A stretch of 64,000 nt of DNA, taken from Paenisporosarcina sp. FSL H8-0542 (lineage in GTDB: Bacteria > Bacillota > Bacilli > Bacillales_A > Planococcaceae). Position 1 is the stretch's first letter; each line of letters begins with the position of its first letter. A program made the position numbers and the translations under genes. Positions 7,647 to 54,418 of the stretch are shown here, one piece after another. The DNA is taken from contig NZ_CP152050.1 of the NCBI RefSeq assembly GCF_038632915.1, positions 1,643,001 through 1,707,000 on the forward strand, read 5' to 3'. The notes beneath the pieces are model-generated. The model worked only from the letters and a program-made list of their open reading frames with translations. It made no database searches and was not told the DNA's origin.

Positions 7647-7699
7647 TTACAATAGTTTTGCATAAAGTTCAGTGGCTTTATATAAAAAGCTACCAAGTA

Positions 7700-7792
7700 A
7701 ATACCGGTTGCTTTAGTTAAAGATCGTGGAGTTGCTTTGGCAACTCCTTTTCTTATTGAACTCCCATATGGGTGCTCCATTATTCAACAAAT
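7700..7792. repeat. Degenerate copy of the TAACGGG composite palindrome
   Basis: Contains the GGTTGCTTTAGTTAAAGATC half-element, a central terminator hairpin and the TTCTTATTGAACT block that mark fuller copies near 43.4-45.6 kb, but the stems are degraded. Confidence 0.45.
7728..7751 (+). terminator. Rho-independent terminator of the first protease gene
   Basis: Perfect 8-bp stem GGAGTTGC / GCAACTCC with a 4-base loop, followed by TTTTCTT. It lies within the degenerate palindromic element just after the stop codon. Confidence 0.8.
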
Positions 7793-14738: not shown

Positions 14739-14772
14739 CTTCTTCAACTAACGGGTGCTTTAGTTGAAGAAG
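14739..14772. repeat. TAACGGG palindrome (type A)
   Basis: Perfect 12-bp stem CTTCTTCAACTA / TAGTTGAAGAAG with loop ACGGGTGCTT. Best-preserved single copy of the family seen across the window. Confidence 0.85.
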
Positions 14773-21006: not shown

Positions 21007-21038
21007 TAGGTGAAAAAATCATTCTTCAAACATATTCA

Positions 21039-21068
21039 TCTTCAACTAACGGATGCTTTAGTTGAAGA
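21039..21068. repeat. TAACGG palindrome (type A)
   Basis: 10-bp perfect stem TCTTCAACTA / TAGTTGAAGA with loop ACGGATGCTT; one base differs in the loop from the copy at 14739. Confidence 0.8.
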
Positions 21069-21580
21069 ACAGGAAATCGTCAGAGAGGTTCTTTAATGCA
21101 CAGGATCAAGGAATGTAAGGACCATTCGGCCATTAATATTATATTTCTACATAATGAATACATGAACTAAATACCATATACGTTTCTAGTTCTTTATATA
21201 CTCATTTTAATAAATTGTTGAATTTTCATAAAATTCTACCTATTATGTTTATTTCCCCCAATTTAAGAGAAAATACTCTCACTAATATTTTTGATTTCGA
21301 CAAAATCAGAAATGTTTTTCCTGATAATAACTTAAAATTCTATTTTAAATGACAATCTTTTTTATGGAATCTTTTACATATAAGTCTATCGAACTATGCT
21401 ATATTCCCCCAATTTACTGTTTTTTATGTTGTATGTACAATTTGTAGTGTAATTATTCACTCAGTAGGGTTAGCATTATTCGTAAAGTTATTATTCCATA
21501 ATTTTATTAAATTTCTAAACTCATAATTGTAGTGAAATAATTATAAAACTCAAAGATAAATAATAAAAGGAGAGATGTGA
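21069..21580. promoter_or_regulatory. AT-rich leader upstream of the third protease
   Basis: About 510 bp with no gene. The 11-mer TCCCCCAATTT occurs twice, near 21252 and 21413, about 160 bp apart, and could be a repeated regulator site. AAAAGGAGAG lies just before ATG 21581. Confidence 0.4.
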
Positions 21581-28227: not shown

Positions 28228-28837
28228 TTTTTAAATAGCTTTTGATTTAACAATACTCCCGGAATGCATTTATTAGGGGTTCTTGTGAAAATATTCACTT
28301 AAACTTTAGATAGCTTAGTTGTAGATCAGTGGGCTGATAAGTCAGCTGTTACTGTTAATTAAACTAACAGGGCAGGTTAGAAATGTAGGGTTAAGTTCGA
28401 TGTAACTCCATTATTATATAGGATTAATTCAGCGTAAACGTCCATTAATAATAATTTCAGAAAAATCCAAAGACAAACTCAGTAATTTTGAGTGAAATGA
28501 ACCAAATCATACTCCGATATTCTGGAATAGCGTACCAGTACAAGTTCAGGTAAGTTTTTTTAACGGATTCTGTTGATTTAAAATAAAGTTTGATAATTTG
28601 TAAAAAAGTTTGATAAAACCCTGTATTAATATAGGGCTTTCTTTTGACCTTTAAACTCCAGCAGTATTGTTCAATTAAAGGGCCATTTTCTGGAATAAAG
28701 CGATTGCTAAAATCACGGAATTTTGAAATAATTGTTATTAAGTTAAAGGGCAGGATTTTAGAATATGGCCGAAACATATTGTATATAAAAAAATTAACAT
28801 TAGTTTCTTAATTCTTTTTATTAGGAGGAAGAGTCGG
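28228..28837. other. Non-coding region with degenerate palindromic elements
   Basis: 28306-28380 contains TAGCTTAGTTG and AAACTAACAGGGCAGGTTAG, a worn copy of the composite palindrome family. 28664-28700 contains TTGTTCAATTAAAGGGCC, possibly another. An open frame of 106 codons on the minus strand (28457-28777) has no ribosome-binding site and no recognisable domain, so I do not call it a gene. TTAGGAGGAAG precedes the next ATG. Confidence 0.45.
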
Positions 28838-36030: not shown

Positions 36031-36105
36031 TAAATACATTTAGAACTTGATAGCCTGGCAGATCTAGCAATTACAAGAAAATTAGAGACTAGATGCCCCT
36101 ACAAG

Positions 36106-36165
36106 TCTAATGGGTGCTTTACTTCAAAAAGGAGTAAAGCATTTTTTTCTTGTTCAACTACACAT
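36106..36165. repeat. Degenerate composite palindrome with terminator
   Basis: TAATGGGTGCTTTACT, then the stem TGCTTTACT / AGTAAAGCA (36115-36141) followed by TTTTTTTCTTGTTCAACTA. This is the A-hairpin / T-tract / B-half order of the family, with the second half incomplete. It should terminate the MFS gene. Confidence 0.65.
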
Positions 36166-36250
36166 GGAGATTAGTTCAATATCACCTCCTCTGTAATTTT
36201 TCTAAAATGTAAATTAATGTTAATATTGAGTATATCTTGGAGGTGTAAAC

Positions 36251-36724
36251 ATGTCTTTTAAAATTATTATCCATTTATCTGTAGCATCAATGGCTTTCAT
36301 CTTTTCTGCTCTAGCTTCATGGTATGAGGGAAGTAAAATATTAGATGTCTCTTGGGAATGGAAACATACAGCTATCTTTTCTGAGATGTTAAATGGTCCT
36401 GTGAAGCAAGCAAGCGATATTTTAACAATTGACTATTTTGTATATGCAGCTAAATTTTTACCTACATTTCCTTTAATTATGTTATTCAGTAGTACATACA
36501 TTCTAATCCTTTTAGGATATATTCTACTCAAACGTAACGATAAGTTGTTTTCGTATTTCCTAACATCTATCGGCGTAATATTCTTGGTATTAAGTGGTTT
36601 TGTATCAAATTCTCCAACTATTGGTTTGAAATATTTTTTCATAAGTTTTTTATTACTAGGGATGATTTCAATTGTTATTGCGTTAAATAGATTTATTAAC
36701 AATAAGACAAGAGAAATATATTAA
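36251..36724 (+). CDS. Small membrane protein, DUF4306-like
   Basis: 157 residues with four predicted helices. The early SALASWYEGSKILDVSWEWKH segment, a Trp-rich loop after the first helix, resembles DUF4306 (YjdJ-type) proteins of Bacillus. Function unknown. TTGGAGGTGTAAAC gives a good ribosome-binding site. It is bracketed on both sides by palindromic repeat copies. Confidence 0.65.
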   Translation: MSFKIIIHLSVASMAFIFSALASWYEGSKILDVSWEWKHTAIFSEMLNGPVKQASDILTIDYFVYAAKFLPTFPLIMLFSSTYILILLGYILLKRNDKLFSYFLTSIGVIFLVLSGFVSNSPTIGLKYFFISFLLLGMISIVIALNRFINNKTREIY

Positions 36725-36730
36725 ATTGTA

Positions 36731-36815
36731 TTACTAGCTGATGCTTTAGTTAAAGATCATCGGGCAATTAAGAAACCCTTTTCCTTATTCAACAAACGCA
36801 ACAGGTTAGTTATAA
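36731..36815. repeat. Degenerate composite palindrome
   Basis: CTGATGCTTTAGTTAAAGATC, then AAACCCTTTTCCTTATTCAAC, then AAACGCAACAGGTTAGTTATAAAAAGG: A half, central T-rich part and B half can be recognised, stems are worn. Confidence 0.55.
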
Positions 36816-36863
36816 AAAGGGTTAGATTTTTTGAGTCAAATATCGGGGTAAGGGGGGATTCAC

Positions 36864-37407: not shown

Positions 37408-38664
37408 ATGTATGAACAATATCCCGATCGGAAAATCGTTTGTCTCGATATGCGGTCATTTTATGCAAGCTGTGCGGCAGCGGATGAAGGACTTGACGTG
37501 ATGAAAACCCCGATTGCGATTATTGGGAATCAACAACAGAAGGGAAGCATCGTGTTAGCGGCTTCCCCACCATTAAAAAAAGAATTTGGCGTGAAGACAG
37601 GTACGCGCTTATTTGAAATACCAGATCACCCAGATATTCGGCTGATTGAACCTAAAATGGGCTTTTTCGTGCGGGTATCTATGGAAATTACCCGTTTGCT
37701 CAGTGAGTATGTGCCAAAAGAAGCGATTCATGTCTACAGCGTGGATGAAAGTTTTATTGATTTGGCTGGAACGGAGCGATTATGGGGACCTGTTGAGCAA
37801 ACTATCCAGCGCATTCAGGACGATTTACTGGAGCAGTTTCAATTGCCATCTGCGATGGGCATGGGTCCGAATATGTTGATGTCCAAGCTGGCGCTTGATT
37901 TGGATGCCAAAAAAAAAGGATTCGCTCGTTGGACTTATGACGATGTCCCAACAAAGTTATGGCCAGTATCCCCACTTCGCGAAATGTGGGGCATTGGACC
38001 GCGAATGGAAAAAAACTTGAATGCCATGGGGATTTTTTCAGTCGGAGATCTTGCGAAAACGAAGTTGGCGACGCTTGAAGCAAAATTCGGGGTCATGGGA
38101 AACCAACTGTACCATCACGCCTGGGGAATTGATCTATCCGACCTCGGTGCACCCCTTATCGAAGGGCAAGTCAGTTACGGAAAAGGGCAAATTCTATTTC
38201 GCGATTACCGTAAAAAGGAAGACATTCTCGCAGTTGTCCTGGAAATGACGGAAGACGTGGCAAGACGTGCGCGGGAAGCAGGTAAAGTCGGGCGTACCGT
38301 TCATCTCGGTGCCGAGTACAGTAAAGATGCCTTTGGCGGAGGGTTTCATCGTTCCCGTTCGATGGAAGAAGCCACAAACGACACAATGAAAATTTACAAG
38401 ATGTGTGTGAAGCTGCTGGATGAACATTTTGATGATCGACCCGTCCGACGACTGTCCGTAACTTTATCAAATATGGAGCCTGAGCATTCGATGCAGCTCA
38501 GCCTGTTTGAAGCGGAAAAGTGGCGCAAGCGAAAGCTAGGTTCGGCCATGGATCACATTCGCAGCAAATATGGTTCGGCCGCATTACTGCGTGCCGTTTC
38601 CTATACAGACGCCGGAACAGCCCGAGCCCGTTCCAAGTTAATTGGGGGACATAAAGCCGAATAA
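37408..38664 (+). CDS. uvrX: Y-family DNA polymerase UvrX/YqjW-type
   Basis: 418 residues from ATG 37408 (GAAGGAGGAG 7-12 bases upstream). Palm/finger motifs: CLDMRSFYASC with Asp14, and VYSVDESFIDL with catalytic Asp113/Glu114; helix-hairpin-helix thumb (MWGIGPRMEKNLNAMGI); C-terminal little-finger domain; MQLSLF near residue 366 is a beta-clamp-binding motif. Error-prone lesion-bypass polymerase of the plasmid/phage UvrX class. Two LexA boxes immediately upstream show SOS control. The YolD-type partner that usually follows uvrX/yqjW is absent. Confidence 0.93.
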   Translation: MYEQYPDRKIVCLDMRSFYASCAAADEGLDVMKTPIAIIGNQQQKGSIVLAASPPLKKEFGVKTGTRLFEIPDHPDIRLIEPKMGFFVRVSMEITRLLSEYVPKEAIHVYSVDESFIDLAGTERLWGPVEQTIQRIQDDLLEQFQLPSAMGMGPNMLMSKLALDLDAKKKGFARWTYDDVPTKLWPVSPLREMWGIGPRMEKNLNAMGIFSVGDLAKTKLATLEAKFGVMGNQLYHHAWGIDLSDLGAPLIEGQVSYGKGQILFRDYRKKEDILAVVLEMTEDVARRAREAGKVGRTVHLGAEYSKDAFGGGFHRSRSMEEATNDTMKIYKMCVKLLDEHFDDRPVRRLSVTLSNMEPEHSMQLSLFEAEKWRKRKLGSAMDHIRSKYGSAALLRAVSYTDAGTARARSKLIGGHKAE

Positions 38665-42590: not shown

Positions 42591-42655
42591 AAAAGGCTTT
42601 ACTTTCTAAGAAAGTAAAGCCTTTTTTCTTATTGAACTAAAGCAGCAGTTTAATT
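42591..42655. repeat. Composite palindrome copy with strong central terminator
   Basis: AAAGGCTTTACTTTC / GAAAGTAAAGCCTTTT hairpin (42591-42627) followed by TTCTTATTGAACTAAAGCAGCAGTTTAATT, the B half of the family with a changed core. 42439-42590 has no gene. Confidence 0.65.
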
Positions 42656-42720
42656 AAAAAATGAAACATTTCTGAAATCTAATCGTACTAAAATAATGTA
42701 ATAGGTAGCAGGGAGGGTTT

Positions 42721-43031
42721 ATTGTTTTTGGAACAATTTTAATCATCGTGTTATTCGTAATGTTAGGAATTATTCTATCGAATGGTAAAGGCTCATTTTT
42801 AATTGCTGGATTTAACACGTTGCCACAAGAAGAAAAAAAAAATATGATACGGTTGCATTCTGTAAGTTTATGGGGAAAATGATGTTCGCTTTATCATTCA
42901 GTATGGTATTTTGGGTACTTAGTGAAGCATATGAAAACAATTGGTTATTTGTTTTTGGTCTCATATTATTTATCGGTATTGTCGTGTTTACTCTTATATA
43001 CGCTAATACAGGGAATCGGTTTAAAAAGTAA
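42721..43031 (+). pseudogene. DUF3784-like membrane protein, frameshifted in a poly-A run
   Basis: Frame one gives FGTILIIVLFVMLGIILSNG, then SFLIAGFNTLPQEEKKN. After a run of ten A (42833-42842) the reading continues one frame over as YDTVAFCKFMGKMMFALSFS and on to NTGNRFKK, stop 43031. Together these make a DUF3784-type three-helix protein of about 103 residues. GGGAGG is well placed, but the in-frame codon after it is ATT, not a usual start. The slip in a homopolymer could be a real mutation, a phase-variable tract or a sequencing error. Confidence 0.7.
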
Positions 43032-43097
43032 ATGTTTATCAGTTAATACTTGAATAGTTAATTTGAAAAATTATTTAAACATTTGTGAAGGATTGTA

Positions 43098-43128
43098 CTT
43101 CAATTAACGGGTGCGTTTGTTCATTAAG
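43098..43128. repeat. TAACGGG palindrome (type A, worn)
   Basis: CTTCAATTAACGGGTGCGTTTGTTCATTAAG: left arm and loop conserved, right arm degraded. Confidence 0.65.
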
Positions 43129-43174
43129 AGCAACCGCTATTGTGCTAACAACCAGGATTGTGGGGAATAAAACT

Positions 43175-43393
43175 TTGGAAGAAAAAAACCAATCGAAACT
43201 AGAAAAATGGAGAACGAAATATGGTTCATTAGCTGTTGCTTCGGGATGTTTATATTCTTTGATAGTTACTTGGGGAGAAGGCTGGTTTTTTACAGCAATA
43301 ATGATTTTAGGGGTCTGCATATGTGGTGCTTTTGCATTTTTTGATTTAAAAATAGTACATACAATCGGATTGATTAAAAAGGTACAAGAATAA
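43175..43393 (+). CDS. Small membrane protein, unknown
   Basis: 72 residues from TTG 43175. A charged N-terminus (LEEKNQSKLEKWRTKYGSLA), two hydrophobic segments (about 25-40 and 43-60) and a basic tail. TGTGGGG lies 8-13 bases upstream. An in-frame ATG at 43085 would read through the palindromic repeat, so I reject it as start. No recognised family. It sits between two repeat copies. Confidence 0.5.
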   Translation: MEEKNQSKLEKWRTKYGSLAVASGCLYSLIVTWGEGWFFTAIMILGVCICGAFAFFDLKIVHTIGLIKKVQE

Positions 43394-43424
43394 TACCAAG
43401 TGTATTATTTGTCGATGTTCCACT

Positions 43425-43506
43425 CTTAAACTAACGGGCGCTTTACTTCAAGAAGGAGTGAAGCATTTTTTCTTGTTGAACTAACGAGACTGTATAGTTG
43501 AGGAAG
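43425..43506. repeat. Composite TAACGGG palindrome
   Basis: CTTAAACTAACGGGCGCTTTACTTCAAGAAGG, hairpin GCTTTACTTC / GGAGTGAAGC, T tract TTTTTTCTTG, then TTGAACTAACGAGACTGTATAGTTGAGGAAG. Full A-terminator-B order. Confidence 0.75.
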
Positions 43507-43541
43507 ATAAATTAGCAAAGGGAAGGGGGATGTCTTAATTC

Positions 43542-43739
43542 ATGAATAAATTTGTAAACATCTTTGTGTTTGTAATTTAATTCTATGTTTTTTATACCTT
43601 GGCTGAGGAGTACGTAGGTTGGATAACGAGCCCTGATCACAATTTACTGTTACAGCTTATGTATCCACTTAGTATTTTTATAGTTGCAATCATAGCTACT
43701 GTGATTTCAATTAAATACATAAAGAGAAATCAAATATGA
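43542..43739 (+). pseudogene. Broken two-helix small membrane protein gene
   Basis: ATG 43542 opens MNKFVNIFVFVI, then TAA. The same frame continues as FYVFYTLAEEYVGWITSPDH, then a second hydrophobic segment (IFIVAIIATVISI) and stop TGA 43739. A single nonsense codon separates the two parts of a 65-residue protein. Flanked by repeat copies. Confidence 0.6.
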
Positions 43740-43752
43740 TTATATGCAATAG

Positions 43753-43786
43753 CTTCTTTAACTAACGGAACAGGTTAGTTGAAGAA
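43753..43786. repeat. TAACGG palindrome (type B)
   Basis: CTTCTTTAACTAA / TTAGTTGAAGAA with loop CGGAACAGG; one mismatch in 12 bp. Confidence 0.75.
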
Positions 43787-43816
43787 CAATTGATTTTAAA
43801 AAGGGGTGCCAAGTGA

Positions 43817-44179
43817 ATGAAGTTAAGATTTTTTTCCTTAACATTAACAGTATTATCAATTTTACTGATTTGTGGTTGTTCGACTAAACAAGATGAAGTG
43901 AATTCCAAAGGCACAGATAGCTATGAAAGAATTAGAAAAGTTGCTTGGGATTTCATCGAAGAAAAAGGTTGGGGTGGCAGTGCTATAGCGGACTGGAAAA
44001 GTGCTGATGTGAAAAAAACGATTGCTGATAATAGCTATGAATTACTGGATAAAACTTATGAAGGGAAAGAAGTATTAAGGGTATCCTTTATAGACCAAGA
44101 GGACGTTGTAGTTGGTCCACCTTTAATACTTGTTGACCCTGAAACCAATGAAGTAATAGGCTATATGCCGGGTGAATAG
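43817..44179 (+). CDS. Small lipoprotein, unknown
   Basis: 120 residues. Lipoprotein signal with lipobox LICGC (Cys about residue 20); the mature part is about 100 residues with AWDFIEEKGWGGSAIADWKSA and a C-terminal LVDPETNEVIGYMPGE that resembles small PepSY-like or YmzC-type folds but is not diagnostic. Expected to be anchored to the outer face of the membrane. AAAGGGGTG precedes the ATG. Single gene between repeat copies. Confidence 0.72.
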   Translation: MKLRFFSLTLTVLSILLICGCSTKQDEVNSKGTDSYERIRKVAWDFIEEKGWGGSAIADWKSADVKKTIADNSYELLDKTYEGKEVLRVSFIDQEDVVVGPPLILVDPETNEVIGYMPGE

Positions 44180-44190
44180 AAATGAATGAT

Positions 44191-44270
44191 CTTCAACTAA
44201 CGGGTGCTTTACTTTAATAAGGAGTAAGACCATTTCTTCTTCAACTAACGCAGCAGTTTAGTTGAAGAAG
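44191..44270. repeat. Composite TAACGGG palindrome, best B stem
   Basis: A half CTTCAACTAACGGGTGCTTT, degraded central hairpin TTACTT / GAGTAAG, then B half with a perfect 13-bp stem CTTCTTCAACTAA / TTTAGTTGAAGAAG (44236-44270). Confidence 0.85.
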
Positions 44271-44316
44271 AAGATTTTTTGGGGAACACCAGAACTTCTA
44301 ATCGGGAGGTAATTTA

Positions 44317-44847
44317 GTGGAAATAGTGGAAAGAAAATATAATTTGTGGTCTTTTCTTTTATGCTTGTTAGTAACGGTTCTTTCTTTACAGACTTTATAT
44401 GCTTCTTATAACCATTCGTGGTCAGTTGCACCACCTGCTTCGGTTTTATTGTTGCTCACGTTTACTACTTGTTTTATGGGTATTTCGGGATTTAGAGACA
44501 AAAGCAACAGGGGAGCAAGATGGAGAAGTTGGATGACTGTCTTAATTGCATTTCCCCTTTCAGCAATTTTTCTATTAGGGATAGTAGTGAATACATTTGC
44601 AAGAGAACCCATTGCAACAACCCAATCACCCGATTCTAAAACGACAATCAACTTCTACACATTAAATGGTGGTGCAGCTACTTCTATTAGTGTAGTAGGA
44701 ATAGTAGATGGTCCCCTTTGGTTCAAGAAGAATATCTACTATGATGACAATATGCACAAGGCAGATGTGGCTTGGACAAATAACGGTATTATTACAATAA
44801 ATAATCACACTTTGAACTTAGATAAAGGGGAAACTTTTTCGGATTAA
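44317..44847 (+). CDS. DUF5412 family membrane protein
   Basis: 176 residues: helices about 10-30, 38-55 and 68-90, then an external domain with SPDSKTTINFYTLNGGAATS, an aromatic-rich segment before KKNIYY, and TNNGIITINNHTLNL, the signature of DUF5412. Function unknown. GTG start with GGGAGG seven bases upstream. Single gene flanked by repeats. Confidence 0.75.
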   Translation: MEIVERKYNLWSFLLCLLVTVLSLQTLYASYNHSWSVAPPASVLLLLTFTTCFMGISGFRDKSNRGARWRSWMTVLIAFPLSAIFLLGIVVNTFAREPIATTQSPDSKTTINFYTLNGGAATSISVVGIVDGPLWFKKNIYYDDNMHKADVAWTNNGIITINNHTLNLDKGETFSD

Positions 44848-44853
44848 TAATTC

Positions 44854-44945
44854 TTTTTACTAACGGTTACTTTAGTAAAAATCTTTGGGCTGTTTTGGTA
44901 GCCCTTTTTTCTTTTTCAACTAACGGGGCAGTTTAGTTGAAGAAA
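44854..44945. repeat. Composite TAACGG palindrome with terminator
   Basis: A half: 10-bp perfect stem TTTTTACTAA / TTAGTAAAAA. Centre: GGGCT / AGCCC hairpin and TTTTTT. B half: TTCAACTAA / TTAGTTGAA around CGGGGCAGT. The A stem has changed on both sides so that pairing is kept. Confidence 0.85.
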
Positions 44946-44970
44946 CACTGAAAAGAAAGGGGCTGTAAAA

Positions 44971-45456
44971 ATGAAATATTTATTATATGAATTGCATTTA
45001 GCTCAAAATATGGATGGCACGAATGATGAAGAATTGGATAAATTAGATAATCAATGGATGGAAAATGCGAAAAAATACAAAGAGGTATTCAATACATTAT
45101 CTGATAGATTGCCTCAAGATATTTTTAATCGTTTTAACTCTTGGGGTTTTCACGATTATAGACTTATAAAAATTGAAATTGAACATAAAAGTCTCCTTCA
45201 CTCAAACATTCACTTCACTGTTTCCAGTGACGATGTTTGGATATTGAGTTTTGACAATGTCTCGTTCTTTCAATTTCAACACTTGAATTATGATAATGAT
45301 AAACCTATTAATAATCGTGAAATAGATGACTGGTTGTTTGAAGAATTATTACCAATTAACGAATCAACATTATCATTTGAAGTCATTTTGTCATCAGGAG
45401 GAAATATACTCTTACACTTCCCAGATAAATCGGTTTCGATGAAAAAGTTAAAATAG
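44971..45456 (+). CDS. Hypothetical cytosolic protein (DUF4085-like?)
   Basis: 161 residues, no signal or helix, acidic. WGFHDYRLIKIEIEHKSLLH and ILSFDNVSFF resemble the C-terminal part of DUF4085-type Bacillus proteins, but the similarity is judged by eye only; an immunity-type protein is another possibility. GAAAGGGGCTG gives a ribosome-binding site. Flanked by repeats on both sides. Confidence 0.6.
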   Translation: MKYLLYELHLAQNMDGTNDEELDKLDNQWMENAKKYKEVFNTLSDRLPQDIFNRFNSWGFHDYRLIKIEIEHKSLLHSNIHFTVSSDDVWILSFDNVSFFQFQHLNYDNDKPINNREIDDWLFEELLPINESTLSFEVILSSGGNILLHFPDKSVSMKKLK

Positions 45457-45466
45457 CTACTGCATT

Positions 45467-45559
45467 ATTGTTCAACTAACGGGTGCTTAGTTGAAGAACA
45501 TCGAGATGCTTAAGCGGTCTTTTTCTCATTGAACTAACGGGGCTGGATAGTTGAACAAG
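45467..45559. repeat. Composite TAACGGG palindrome
   Basis: A half GTTCAACTAACGGGTGCTTA with right arm TTAGTTGAAGAAC, weak centre, then TTGAACTAACGGGGCTGGAT and TAGTTGAACAAG. Its outermost 7-mers are GTTCAAC and GTTGAAC. Confidence 0.8.
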
Positions 45560-45612
45560 AATATTGTCTTATCATAAGGAAATACTACCTTTAAAATTAG
45601 GTAGGTGATTAG

Positions 45613-46122
45613 ATGAAAAAAATATCAGTTATATTTTTGCTATTGCTATTAAGTTTAACAACTCTAATATTTGTAATTTGGGAAAGACCACCAAAAGCAA
45701 AGGCAATAAATGAAGAAAATGATGAATTATTAGAAGTGATTTCAGTGCCCTGTAGCCTAACATTGGAGTCTGTTGATAAAAGTCTGACGAATACAAAAGG
45801 TGTAGCATTAATCTATAAAGTGCAATTAAATCCACCAAGTTTTGCAAGAACTAATATAAGTATTCTCGCTGTTCATCTTCCTGAACCGTCTTCGTATGGA
45901 GACTTCGATAGCTATGAAGGTTTTGCGTTTGTTCCAAAAGAAATAAGTTGGCGTTTTAAGCTTTATCCAACCCCAGAGGAGAATGGTCCAAGTTGGGCTG
46001 GACGATTTGATTTAATTACAGCAGAAATGAAGAATGTCGAAGTTCAGGTGCGTCTCTCAAATTCCAAAACAGGTAAGTTAGGACCAAGTGTTCTAACAAA
46101 CAGTATTAATTATTGTAAATAG
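45613..46122 (+). CDS. Secreted or membrane-anchored hypothetical protein
   Basis: 169 residues. N-terminal hydrophobic segment (about 4-23) that could be an uncleaved anchor, then a soluble beta-rich domain with two Cys (in VPCSLT and near the C-terminus, INYCK) that could form a disulfide outside the cell. TAGGTGATTAG precedes the ATG. No recognised family. Last gene of the repeat-separated row. Confidence 0.6.
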   Translation: MKKISVIFLLLLLSLTTLIFVIWERPPKAKAINEENDELLEVISVPCSLTLESVDKSLTNTKGVALIYKVQLNPPSFARTNISILAVHLPEPSSYGDFDSYEGFAFVPKEISWRFKLYPTPEENGPSWAGRFDLITAEMKNVEVQVRLSNSKTGKLGPSVLTNSINYCK

Positions 46123-46385
46123 TTTCTGCTTCAGCAGCAATCATGCTCATTTTATTTCCATCGATTCCACGACGAGCAAATACTATTGGGGCTGCCCTTT
46201 AATCTGTTCTTTACATCCGTAGTGTACTTTGTAAAAAGATAAAAACGGGAAAAAACAAATTTCAGGAATTTATTTACTTTATTGAATGTTTGTATTATTA
46301 TAATAAATAAGTGAAATTCGTTGATTTCAAAACGAGCAAAACTGATACCATTTAAACCATTAATAAAACTAAATAGTTAATTTCT

Positions 46386-46552
46386 ACTTATCAAGAGAGG
46401 TGGAGGGAAAGGCCCTTTGAAACCTCGGCAACAGACTCATTATGAGCACTGTGCCAATTCCTTCAAGCGATTATGCTTGGAAGATGAGTTGAGATCTTGT
46501 CACATATTTTTAATGATGAGCCTCTTCTTGCTTCCAAGAAGAGGCTTTTTTG
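46386..46552 (+). promoter_or_regulatory. SAM-I riboswitch (S-box) controlling metE
   Basis: The conserved S-box core is present: CTTATCAAGAGAGGTGGAGG, GGCCCTTTGAAACCTCGGCAAC and GTGCCAATTCC. It is followed by a terminator with a perfect 12-bp stem (46519-46530 with 46535-46546), loop CTTC and a T run. High SAM should favour the terminator. A TATAAT at 46299 with TTTACT about 19 bp upstream is a plausible promoter. Confidence 0.95.
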
Positions 46553-54251: not shown

Positions 54252-54418
54252 GTCGTAATTAACCTGAATTTTCTTGTTCGAGATAACCGGCTTAATCCTC
54301 TGATATACACTGGGTTTTGGCGGTTTTTTATTGTGACATATTGGAATGGTAAGAAGGATCAACGCAAAAAAGGGGGGGAATCCACCCAAAACAGAAGGAA
54401 GGAATGAACACTAGGTCC

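Follow-up and report, generated by a model that had tools for sequence, protein, structure and literature searches.

Hairpin repeats of Paenisporosarcina as probable recombination sites of an integron-like gene-cassette system with a XerA-like integrase

The 64,000-nucleotide stretch of Paenisporosarcina sp. FSL H8-0542 analysed here (NZ_CP152050.1, positions 1,643,001 to 1,707,000; hereafter, the window) contains many copies of a short palindromic hairpin, most of them clustered within 3 kb. An earlier note on this DNA interpreted them as parts of 80–95 bp non-autonomous units, akin to repetitive extragenic palindromic (REP) elements or miniature inverted-repeat transposable elements (MITEs), that double as terminators. 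The comparisons reported here favor a different reading, with a probability of about 0.88, in which the hairpins are the recombination sites of an integron-like mobile gene-cassette system that employs an integrase other than IntI. This reading builds on direct observations of site anatomy, homology breakpoints, strain differences, integrase association and site orientation. To judge from the sequence comparisons, what moves is the DNA between hairpins, as a rule a single gene.

Each hairpin is a junction, with a left arm, CTTATTnAACTAAC, that belongs to the upstream module, and a spacer and right arm that belong to the downstream module. In the B site, CTTATTnAACTAAC-GGGGCAG-GTTAGTTnAAnAAG, two inverted arms of ~14 bp surround a 7-bp centre (AAC-GGGGCAG-GTT); in the A site, GGGTGCT replaces the B centre and the right arm lies one base nearer. 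At the six inner positions of each arm, a single base is present in 54–99% of sites (93–99% on the left in the window's own genome). Intervals starting with a B site are mostly gene-sized (124 of 141 within 200–1600 bp; median 616 bp among those of at least 200 bp), and those starting with an A site are mostly shorter than 90 bp (69 of 106) and have a terminator-like end, with a T run near it in 61 of the 69, so that the succession of A hairpin, terminator and B hairpin described in the earlier note holds. Virtually all intervals of 200–1600 bp (146 of 147) contain an open reading frame (ORF) of at least 60 aa, the longest of which points forward in 131 and in reverse in 15. Interval sizes and contents therefore resolve the 80–95 bp composite element into two junctions around a terminator mini-module of ~50–60 bp, with genes in between. 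Since a cassette begins with a spacer and right arm and ends with a left arm, a full site forms only where two cassettes meet.

The repeat family itself is real and is not confined to the window. Allowing up to 2 mismatches, TTCAACTAACGGG has 15 matches in the window, 2 of them on the minus strand, whereas 100 shuffles gave 1.4 on average and 4 at most, and the complete genome (3.63 Mb, one contig) carries 170 exact instances of AACTAACGGG (86 on the plus strand and 84 on the minus strand), against 11 (7 and 4) for a reversed control pattern. The copies previously described were recovered both in the cluster (site cores 42635, 43102, 43429/43479, 43760, 44195/44243, 44858/44918 and 45474/45532) and outside it (7699, 14746, 21044, 28362, 36105 and 36791). 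For the copies at 28306 and 36731, erosion of the A half leaves the B half, 56–60 bp further on, as the scored site; cores 43102 and 36105 score below 25, the cut-off for most counts given here (23 in early scans, including the window site list). The sites are almost uniformly oriented. Across 11 cluster regions of the genome (413 kb), 279 sites scoring at least 25 lie on the replication-oriented strand and 2 non-overlapping ones on the other, and 20 control stretches of 6 kb yielded 0 and 3 sites on the two strands. By hand counts from the printed list, AACTAACGGG occurs 82 times on the plus strand and once on the minus strand up to 1.79 Mb, and, from the totals, 4 and 83 times, respectively, beyond 2.1 Mb. 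The first genes of the genome are presumably dnaA, dnaN, recF and gyrB, and GC skew changes sign near 1.8–2.0 Mb, indicating that the sites point with replication.

Module contents are diverse. Among 137 module proteins, 74 Pfam families are represented, none with more than 4 members, and these include GNAT acetyltransferases, DinB, colicin-like immunity, glyoxalase, HAD and several DUF families, and defence genes among them amount to 6 PADLOC families with one member each (best, mad2, 2e-17). Sigma-70-like promoters are not enriched, either at the starts of 123 B modules (first 120 bp; 39, compared with 42.4 in shuffled sequence) or in the window cluster (7 against 17.5).

Evidence that these intervals have moved comes from the points at which homology ends. 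When the arrays of the genome are compared with each other, the same module is found with different neighbors, and homology ends inside the hairpin. In 52 sequences from this and other genomes, 324 of 540 left ends and 367 of 516 right ends of high-scoring segment pairs (HSPs) fall at sites, against means of 34 (largest 48) and 41.5 (largest 62) in shifted controls. HSPs shorter than 150 bp or below 75% identity were dropped (678 left), as were those with no site within 1500 bp of each end or with the 1750–1870 bp length of the IS110 element described below (544 left). Counting one HSP per module family, after exclusion of HSPs of the integrase gene and of overlapping loci of one contig (L048/L069 and L052/L073; 161 left), left ends coincide with sites in 48 of 87 cases and right ends in 59 of 88 (300 shifted controls: mean 10.1, largest 20, and mean 9.1, largest 19), with both ends at sites in 34 of 87 families. 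The right half switches type, with A replacing B, at 6 of 37 right junctions. The cassette of the array integrase, seen in 22 different contexts per side, starts with GGGTGC and ends with ACTAAC, the bases beyond following the neighbor, which places the boundary after ...AAC. Furthermore, among 12 duplications within a genome (other than insertion sequences, at least 250 bp and 96% identical), 7 have both ends at sites, such as a 760-bp one at 99.5% identity and one of 1273 bp at 99.2% that holds the integrase cassette in a second strain of the window's species (G061).

Comparison with that strain points in the same direction. In five of six array pairs, collinear blocks (>600 bp, 97.4–99.9% identical) are broken by unlike segments (512 bp versus 4.1 kb, 649 versus 766 bp, 5.0 versus 1.2 kb, and 2.1 versus 19.6 kb, the last with one edge 166–251 bp away from a site); at the thresholds used, no block aligned in the sixth pair, M2458/H1360. 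For blocks of at least 500 bp and 95% identity, 26 of 38 inner edges in the six pairs, one of them without blocks, coincide with a site of one strain or the other (control mean 3.1, largest 9), some of these 26 being IS110 insertions into sites. For this part of the edges, cassettes appear to have been exchanged precisely at the sites. Of 453 site junctions in the two strains, 87 are the same, 60 share one flank only, 2 are empty in one strain and filled in the other and 1 is of another kind; the remaining 303 share neither flank or are ambiguous, many of them in regions with no fetched partner. The cluster that lies between an ABC transporter and metE at the window locus does not differ between the two strains. 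Among seven congeners, G005 carries, near the transporter, a group of sites unlike this one, the only site in the fetched stretch of G003 lies before the transporter, and the fetched stretches of G001, G002, G004, G006 and G007 contain no site at this locus; no metE block follows the transporter in the fetched stretches of any of the seven, and the absence of sites there is therefore not a clean empty site.

Shuffling through homologous recombination between dispersed repeats of ~35 bp and terminators of ~60 bp, with no dedicated enzyme, would also rearrange modules, and it draws on the similarity of the repeats, on the many modules that are 80–99% alike between arrays, and on the fact that swapped segments often have the same repeat on their flanks. 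It is nonetheless an improbable account, given that the common stretches are short and imperfect, that junctions fall at the AAC/G boundary (the slash marking the junction), that the right half can change type and sites keep a single orientation, and that a recombinase gene resides within the arrays, bounded by the same sites.

Other features of the arrays were observed alongside. An element of ~1.75 kb, which we take to be IS110 from its translated end, is inserted at one position in the B-site centre (GGGGCAG/CATTCC) in copies 98.9–99.9% identical; two of its host sites are empty in G061. Its insertion resembles the targeting of integron attC sites by IS1111. A ~200-bp sequence starting near TGAAGATTCGATTTCCGAAATAATCAAA, in copies 86–98% alike, is found after A sites, in many cases close to the end of an array. 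Both strains have a 699-bp duplication, 98.4% identical, that is not bounded by sites. Their positions, by array or locus, are as follows.

~1.75-kb element, own genome: L003 ~6232, L005 ~11091, L007 ~4483, M2104 2218 and 25343, M2458 18214
~200-bp TGAAGATTCGATTTCCGAAATAATCAAA sequence: L005 14823, L006 7123, L007 9360, M2515 53382 and 64790
699-bp duplication: M2104 37468-38166 and P1758 5993-6690

A candidate enzyme resides in the arrays themselves. A search that started from an unrelated recombinase matched genes inside the site clusters of relatives, and these encode a tyrosine recombinase of 279–281 aa that scores 225 bits against NF040815 (XerA; cut-off 220) and 135 bits against PF00589, but fails the integron integrase model TIGR02249 (93 and 97 bits; cut-off 265). 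Its nearest solved structures are XerC-like, XerD and XerA, with IntI4 much weaker. R140, K164, H230, R233, H256 and Y265 are shared by all 15 intact integrases, and presumably are the catalytic R-K-H-R-H-Y residues. At least 43 integrase loci were found, some sharing a genome or overlapping, mostly in Psychrobacillus, Lysinibacillus, Paenisporosarcina, Sporosarcina, Viridibacillus, Solibacillus and Bacillaceae genera. Among the loci listed, nearby sites are antisense to the gene in 36 of the 37 loci with 45–100% identity (432 antisense versus 8 sense sites over all 43 loci), and none of six distant homologues has sites nearby. In 22 of these 37 listed loci a B core lies 68–78 bp before the integrase start, and in 22 a site core, typed A in 18, lies 60–71 bp past its end. 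On this sequence arrangement, the integrase is carried in the arrays as an antisense cassette of its own. In a tree, the array integrases form one clade (support 100/100; long branches flagged), with solitary relatives that lack the antisense pattern as their nearest, paraphyletic kin.

Integrase and sites also go together across genomes. Of 261 genomes of the order, 77 encode an integrase homologue (E 1e-55 or better) and TTCAACTAACGGG occurs at least once in 117; a close integrase occurs in 27 of the 37 site-rich genomes (at least 5 sites) but in only 14 of the 224 others (p 1.7e-18), the genomes with a close integrase (41) and the site-rich ones (37) having been counted by hand from printed tables. 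In G061, two arrays each carry an intact copy, the two being identical, inside the 1273-bp duplicated block, which also holds the next module. The window's genome has a 65-aa remnant and a degraded copy, with no match at E 1e-55 genome-wide, and its arrays may therefore now be frozen. A 266-kb plasmid of Sporosarcina psychrophila (NZ_CP146247.1, L132) carries a 93% identical integrase and ten antisense sites in 31 kb, with NUDIX, merA and merR genes between two sites and an annotated IS110 transposase among the sites. Three tandem tyrosine recombinases of the window's genome (435, 380 and 325 aa; C1:2454802-2457416), near the array at 2461–2481 kb, were also considered as the array enzyme and rejected, no close homologue of the third protein having turned up in a search of 60 other genomes (best hit listed, 29% identical, by E-value).

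The earlier view of REP/MITE-like non-autonomous units, moved in trans by a Y1/HUH or other transposase, has in its favor that the elements are palindromic, intergenic, terminator-like and present in high copy number, and that A-started mini-modules and the integrase cassette have the same start, GGGTGCTTTAGT, as would be expected of a deletion derivative. Of that view, mobility, high genomic copy number and terminator-like parts survive; the unit itself does not, because PF01797, the family of the predicted Y1/REP-type transposase, has no match in the window's genome (a control search matches in 5 of 14 genomes), because the arms do not covary, and because homology breaks inside the hairpins, so that the two halves go with different neighbors and the repeat does not insert as a unit, as a MITE would. 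The near-uniform orientation of the sites (279 to 2) also speaks against it, and we deem it very unlikely. The paired change of both stem arms at 44854, from which selection on pairing had been proposed, looks like chance: the TTTAGTAAAAA right arm, searched with one mismatch allowed among the A sites of the genome, occurs in 9 of them, of which only the one at 44854 has a TTTTTACTAA left arm, and none of four sets, totalling 712 distinct arm pairs, shows arm covariation (z of totals −0.2 to 0.8). The notion of a non-autonomous element is partly preserved at the level of the 50–60 bp terminator mini-modules, which could, given their shared A-type start, be derivatives of the integrase cassette; it does not extend to the 80–95 bp element. 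Movement driven by the host XerC/XerD, as in Acinetobacter dif modules, with the integrase as a passenger, is similarly hard to credit, for while two recombinases that we take to be XerC and XerD are present in the window's genome, which has no intact array integrase, the sites are nearly all direct and a close array integrase accompanies site-rich genomes.

Several observations weigh against a dedicated cassette system. The arm spacing of A sites is one base shorter than that of B sites, which is unusual for one recombinase. Twelve of the 38 strain block edges are not at a site, including that of a 14-kb difference from window position 54372, 53 of the 87 module families do not have both ends at sites, and of the 12 duplications within a genome, 3 miss sites at both ends and 2 at one end. 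Among the 453 sites, comparison of the two strains yielded no clean empty/filled pair for a single cassette, the only 2 cases of a site empty here and filled there being an insertion of IS110 and a loss of which one edge does not coincide with a site. Lastly, 10 of the 37 site-rich genomes, including the window's own, have no close integrase, the 93% identical integrase of L062 has no site in its 11.9 kb, and the solitary integrases (L122-L130, nine loci, 58–65% identical) are accompanied by 16 sense sites and a single antisense echo, opposite to what the arrays show.

Several of these solitary relatives share a similar upstream stretch. Strand-biased short repeats, CTATGAGCGC (28 to 0) and TTGATAGAGC (7 to 0), stand beside two of them, L124 (G226:C1:3085000-3104000) and L128, and could represent another array type.

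Within the window, the cluster and the outlying sites, all on the plus strand, can be parsed as follows.

42591..42641, +: terminator hairpin and left half of the B site with core 42635, probably a terminator mini-module with an eroded A end
42642..43108, +: B-started module with no listed plus-strand ORF of at least 60 aa
43109..43435, +: A-started module behind the low-scoring site with core 43102 (24.5), with an ORF ending at 43393, no Pfam match
43436..43485, +: A-started terminator mini-module, 50 bp
43486..43766, +: B-started module with no listed ORF of at least 60 aa
43767..44201, +: B-started gene module, ORF 43817-44179 (120 aa), lipoprotein-like by eye, no Pfam match
44202..44249, +: A-started terminator mini-module, 48 bp
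44250..44864, +: B-started gene module, ORF 44317-44847, DUF5412 protein
44865..44924, +: A-started terminator mini-module, 60 bp, TTTAGTAAAAATC subtype
44925..45480, +: B-started gene module, ORF 44971-45456 (161 aa), no Pfam match
45481..45538, +: A-started terminator mini-module, 58 bp
45539..46122, +: final gene of the cluster, downstream of its last B site, ORF 45613-46122 (169 aa), no Pfam match
7692..7725, +: solitary A-type site, core 7699
14739..14772, +: solitary A-type site, core 14746
21037..21070, +: solitary A-type site, core 21044
28306..28389, +: A half (eroded) plus terminator, preceding a B-type site with core 28362
36098..36818, +: two low-scoring sites, A core 36105 (24.5) and B core 36791 (25.5), flanking a DUF4306 gene (36251-36724)

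The DUF4306 gene and its flanking sites are possibly a one-gene cassette outside the cluster. No scored site lies between the last cluster gene and 46385, where an S-adenosylmethionine (SAM) riboswitch (46385-46490) directly follows the array; the genes after it are presumably a methionine synthesis cluster.

In the proposed cassette mechanism, the XerA-like recombinase (~280 aa), itself encoded by an antisense cassette, would recombine the hairpin sites, which resemble a classic tyrosine-recombinase core in having inverted arms around a 7-bp centre. Cassettes would be excised as circles, in which CTTATTnAACTAAC would join GGGGCAGGTTAGTTnAA of the same cassette, and would be inserted into other sites at the AAC/G boundary, the presumed position of cleavage. 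Exchange limited to this left boundary would account for the centre staying with the downstream module, including cases in which A takes the place of B. Insertion nearly always in one orientation would yield long co-oriented arrays of mostly one-gene cassettes, in which A-type mini-cassettes of 50–60 bp, with a predicted intrinsic terminator, would insulate neighbors.

Such arrays share several traits with integrons: long co-oriented runs of mostly single-gene cassettes (131 of 146 modules forward, 279 sites to 2), a palindromic site in between, a tyrosine recombinase on the other strand, and a gene content that is mostly unknown or accessory. IS110/IS1111-type elements insert at integron sites, as they do here. 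On the other hand, the integrase fits XerA rather than the integron integrase model, its gene is itself a cassette within the array, and terminator-only mini-cassettes are common. No attI was seen, the integrase lying between ordinary sites, although no systematic search for attI was made. Integron attC sites are conserved in folded structure rather than sequence, whereas the site here is a short palindrome that is conserved in sequence, is split at its centre and shows no covariation. This argues against recognition of the folded strand alone, as in attC, but folded-strand recognition may still be accommodated by the one-base difference in A/B spacing. In the parts of the IntegronFinder 2.0 report that bear on Firmicutes, integrons are described as extremely rare in this phylum, Limnochorda pilosa having the only complete one, plus a few clusters of attC sites lacking integron-integrases (CALIN) (PMC9024848).

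The dif modules (pdif) of Acinetobacter plasmids are likewise modules of genes that have short palindromic tyrosine-recombinase sites at their borders and are shuffled, and site-targeting insertion sequences are known for them from part of one account (PMC10132070). Their 28-bp sites, with a 6-bp spacer, are inversely oriented, so described in sections of another, with alternating C and D modules on which XerCD acts (PMC13141974), whereas the sites here are nearly all direct, with a 7-bp centre in B sites and a dedicated integrase. REP elements with REP-associated tyrosine transposases (RAYTs), bcr1 and other MITEs are also many-copy extragenic palindromes that are partly terminator-like. REP/RAYT systems involve a Y1-type transposase, as stated in the relevant part of the source (PMC3733652). 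No Y1 transposase match exists here, in contrast, and the palindrome is the junction of two modules, not a unit. The tandem recombinase trio of the window's genome (2454.8-2457.4 kb), which we take to be of the recombinase-in-trio (RIT) or Tn554 type, lies near one array; as noted, its third protein has no close homologue in the genomes searched.

Taken together, the Bacillales quite probably possess their own, separately evolved counterpart of the integron, with a XerA-derived integrase that moves as one of the cassettes of its array, sites present only where cassettes join, and terminator-only insulator cassettes; a search of open-access papers found no description of such a system among its top-ranked results. 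If so, cassette capture would have been solved a second time, with a different integrase and site, and the ~35-bp site would be compact enough for genetic tools. The system would account for many of the small accessory genes in such genomes and, with integrases 78–100% identical to the query in several genera and 93% identical on a plasmid, would constitute a cross-genus gene-exchange network in Gram-positives, which are considered almost free of integrons, and would point to a path by which genes pass between Bacillales and their plasmids.

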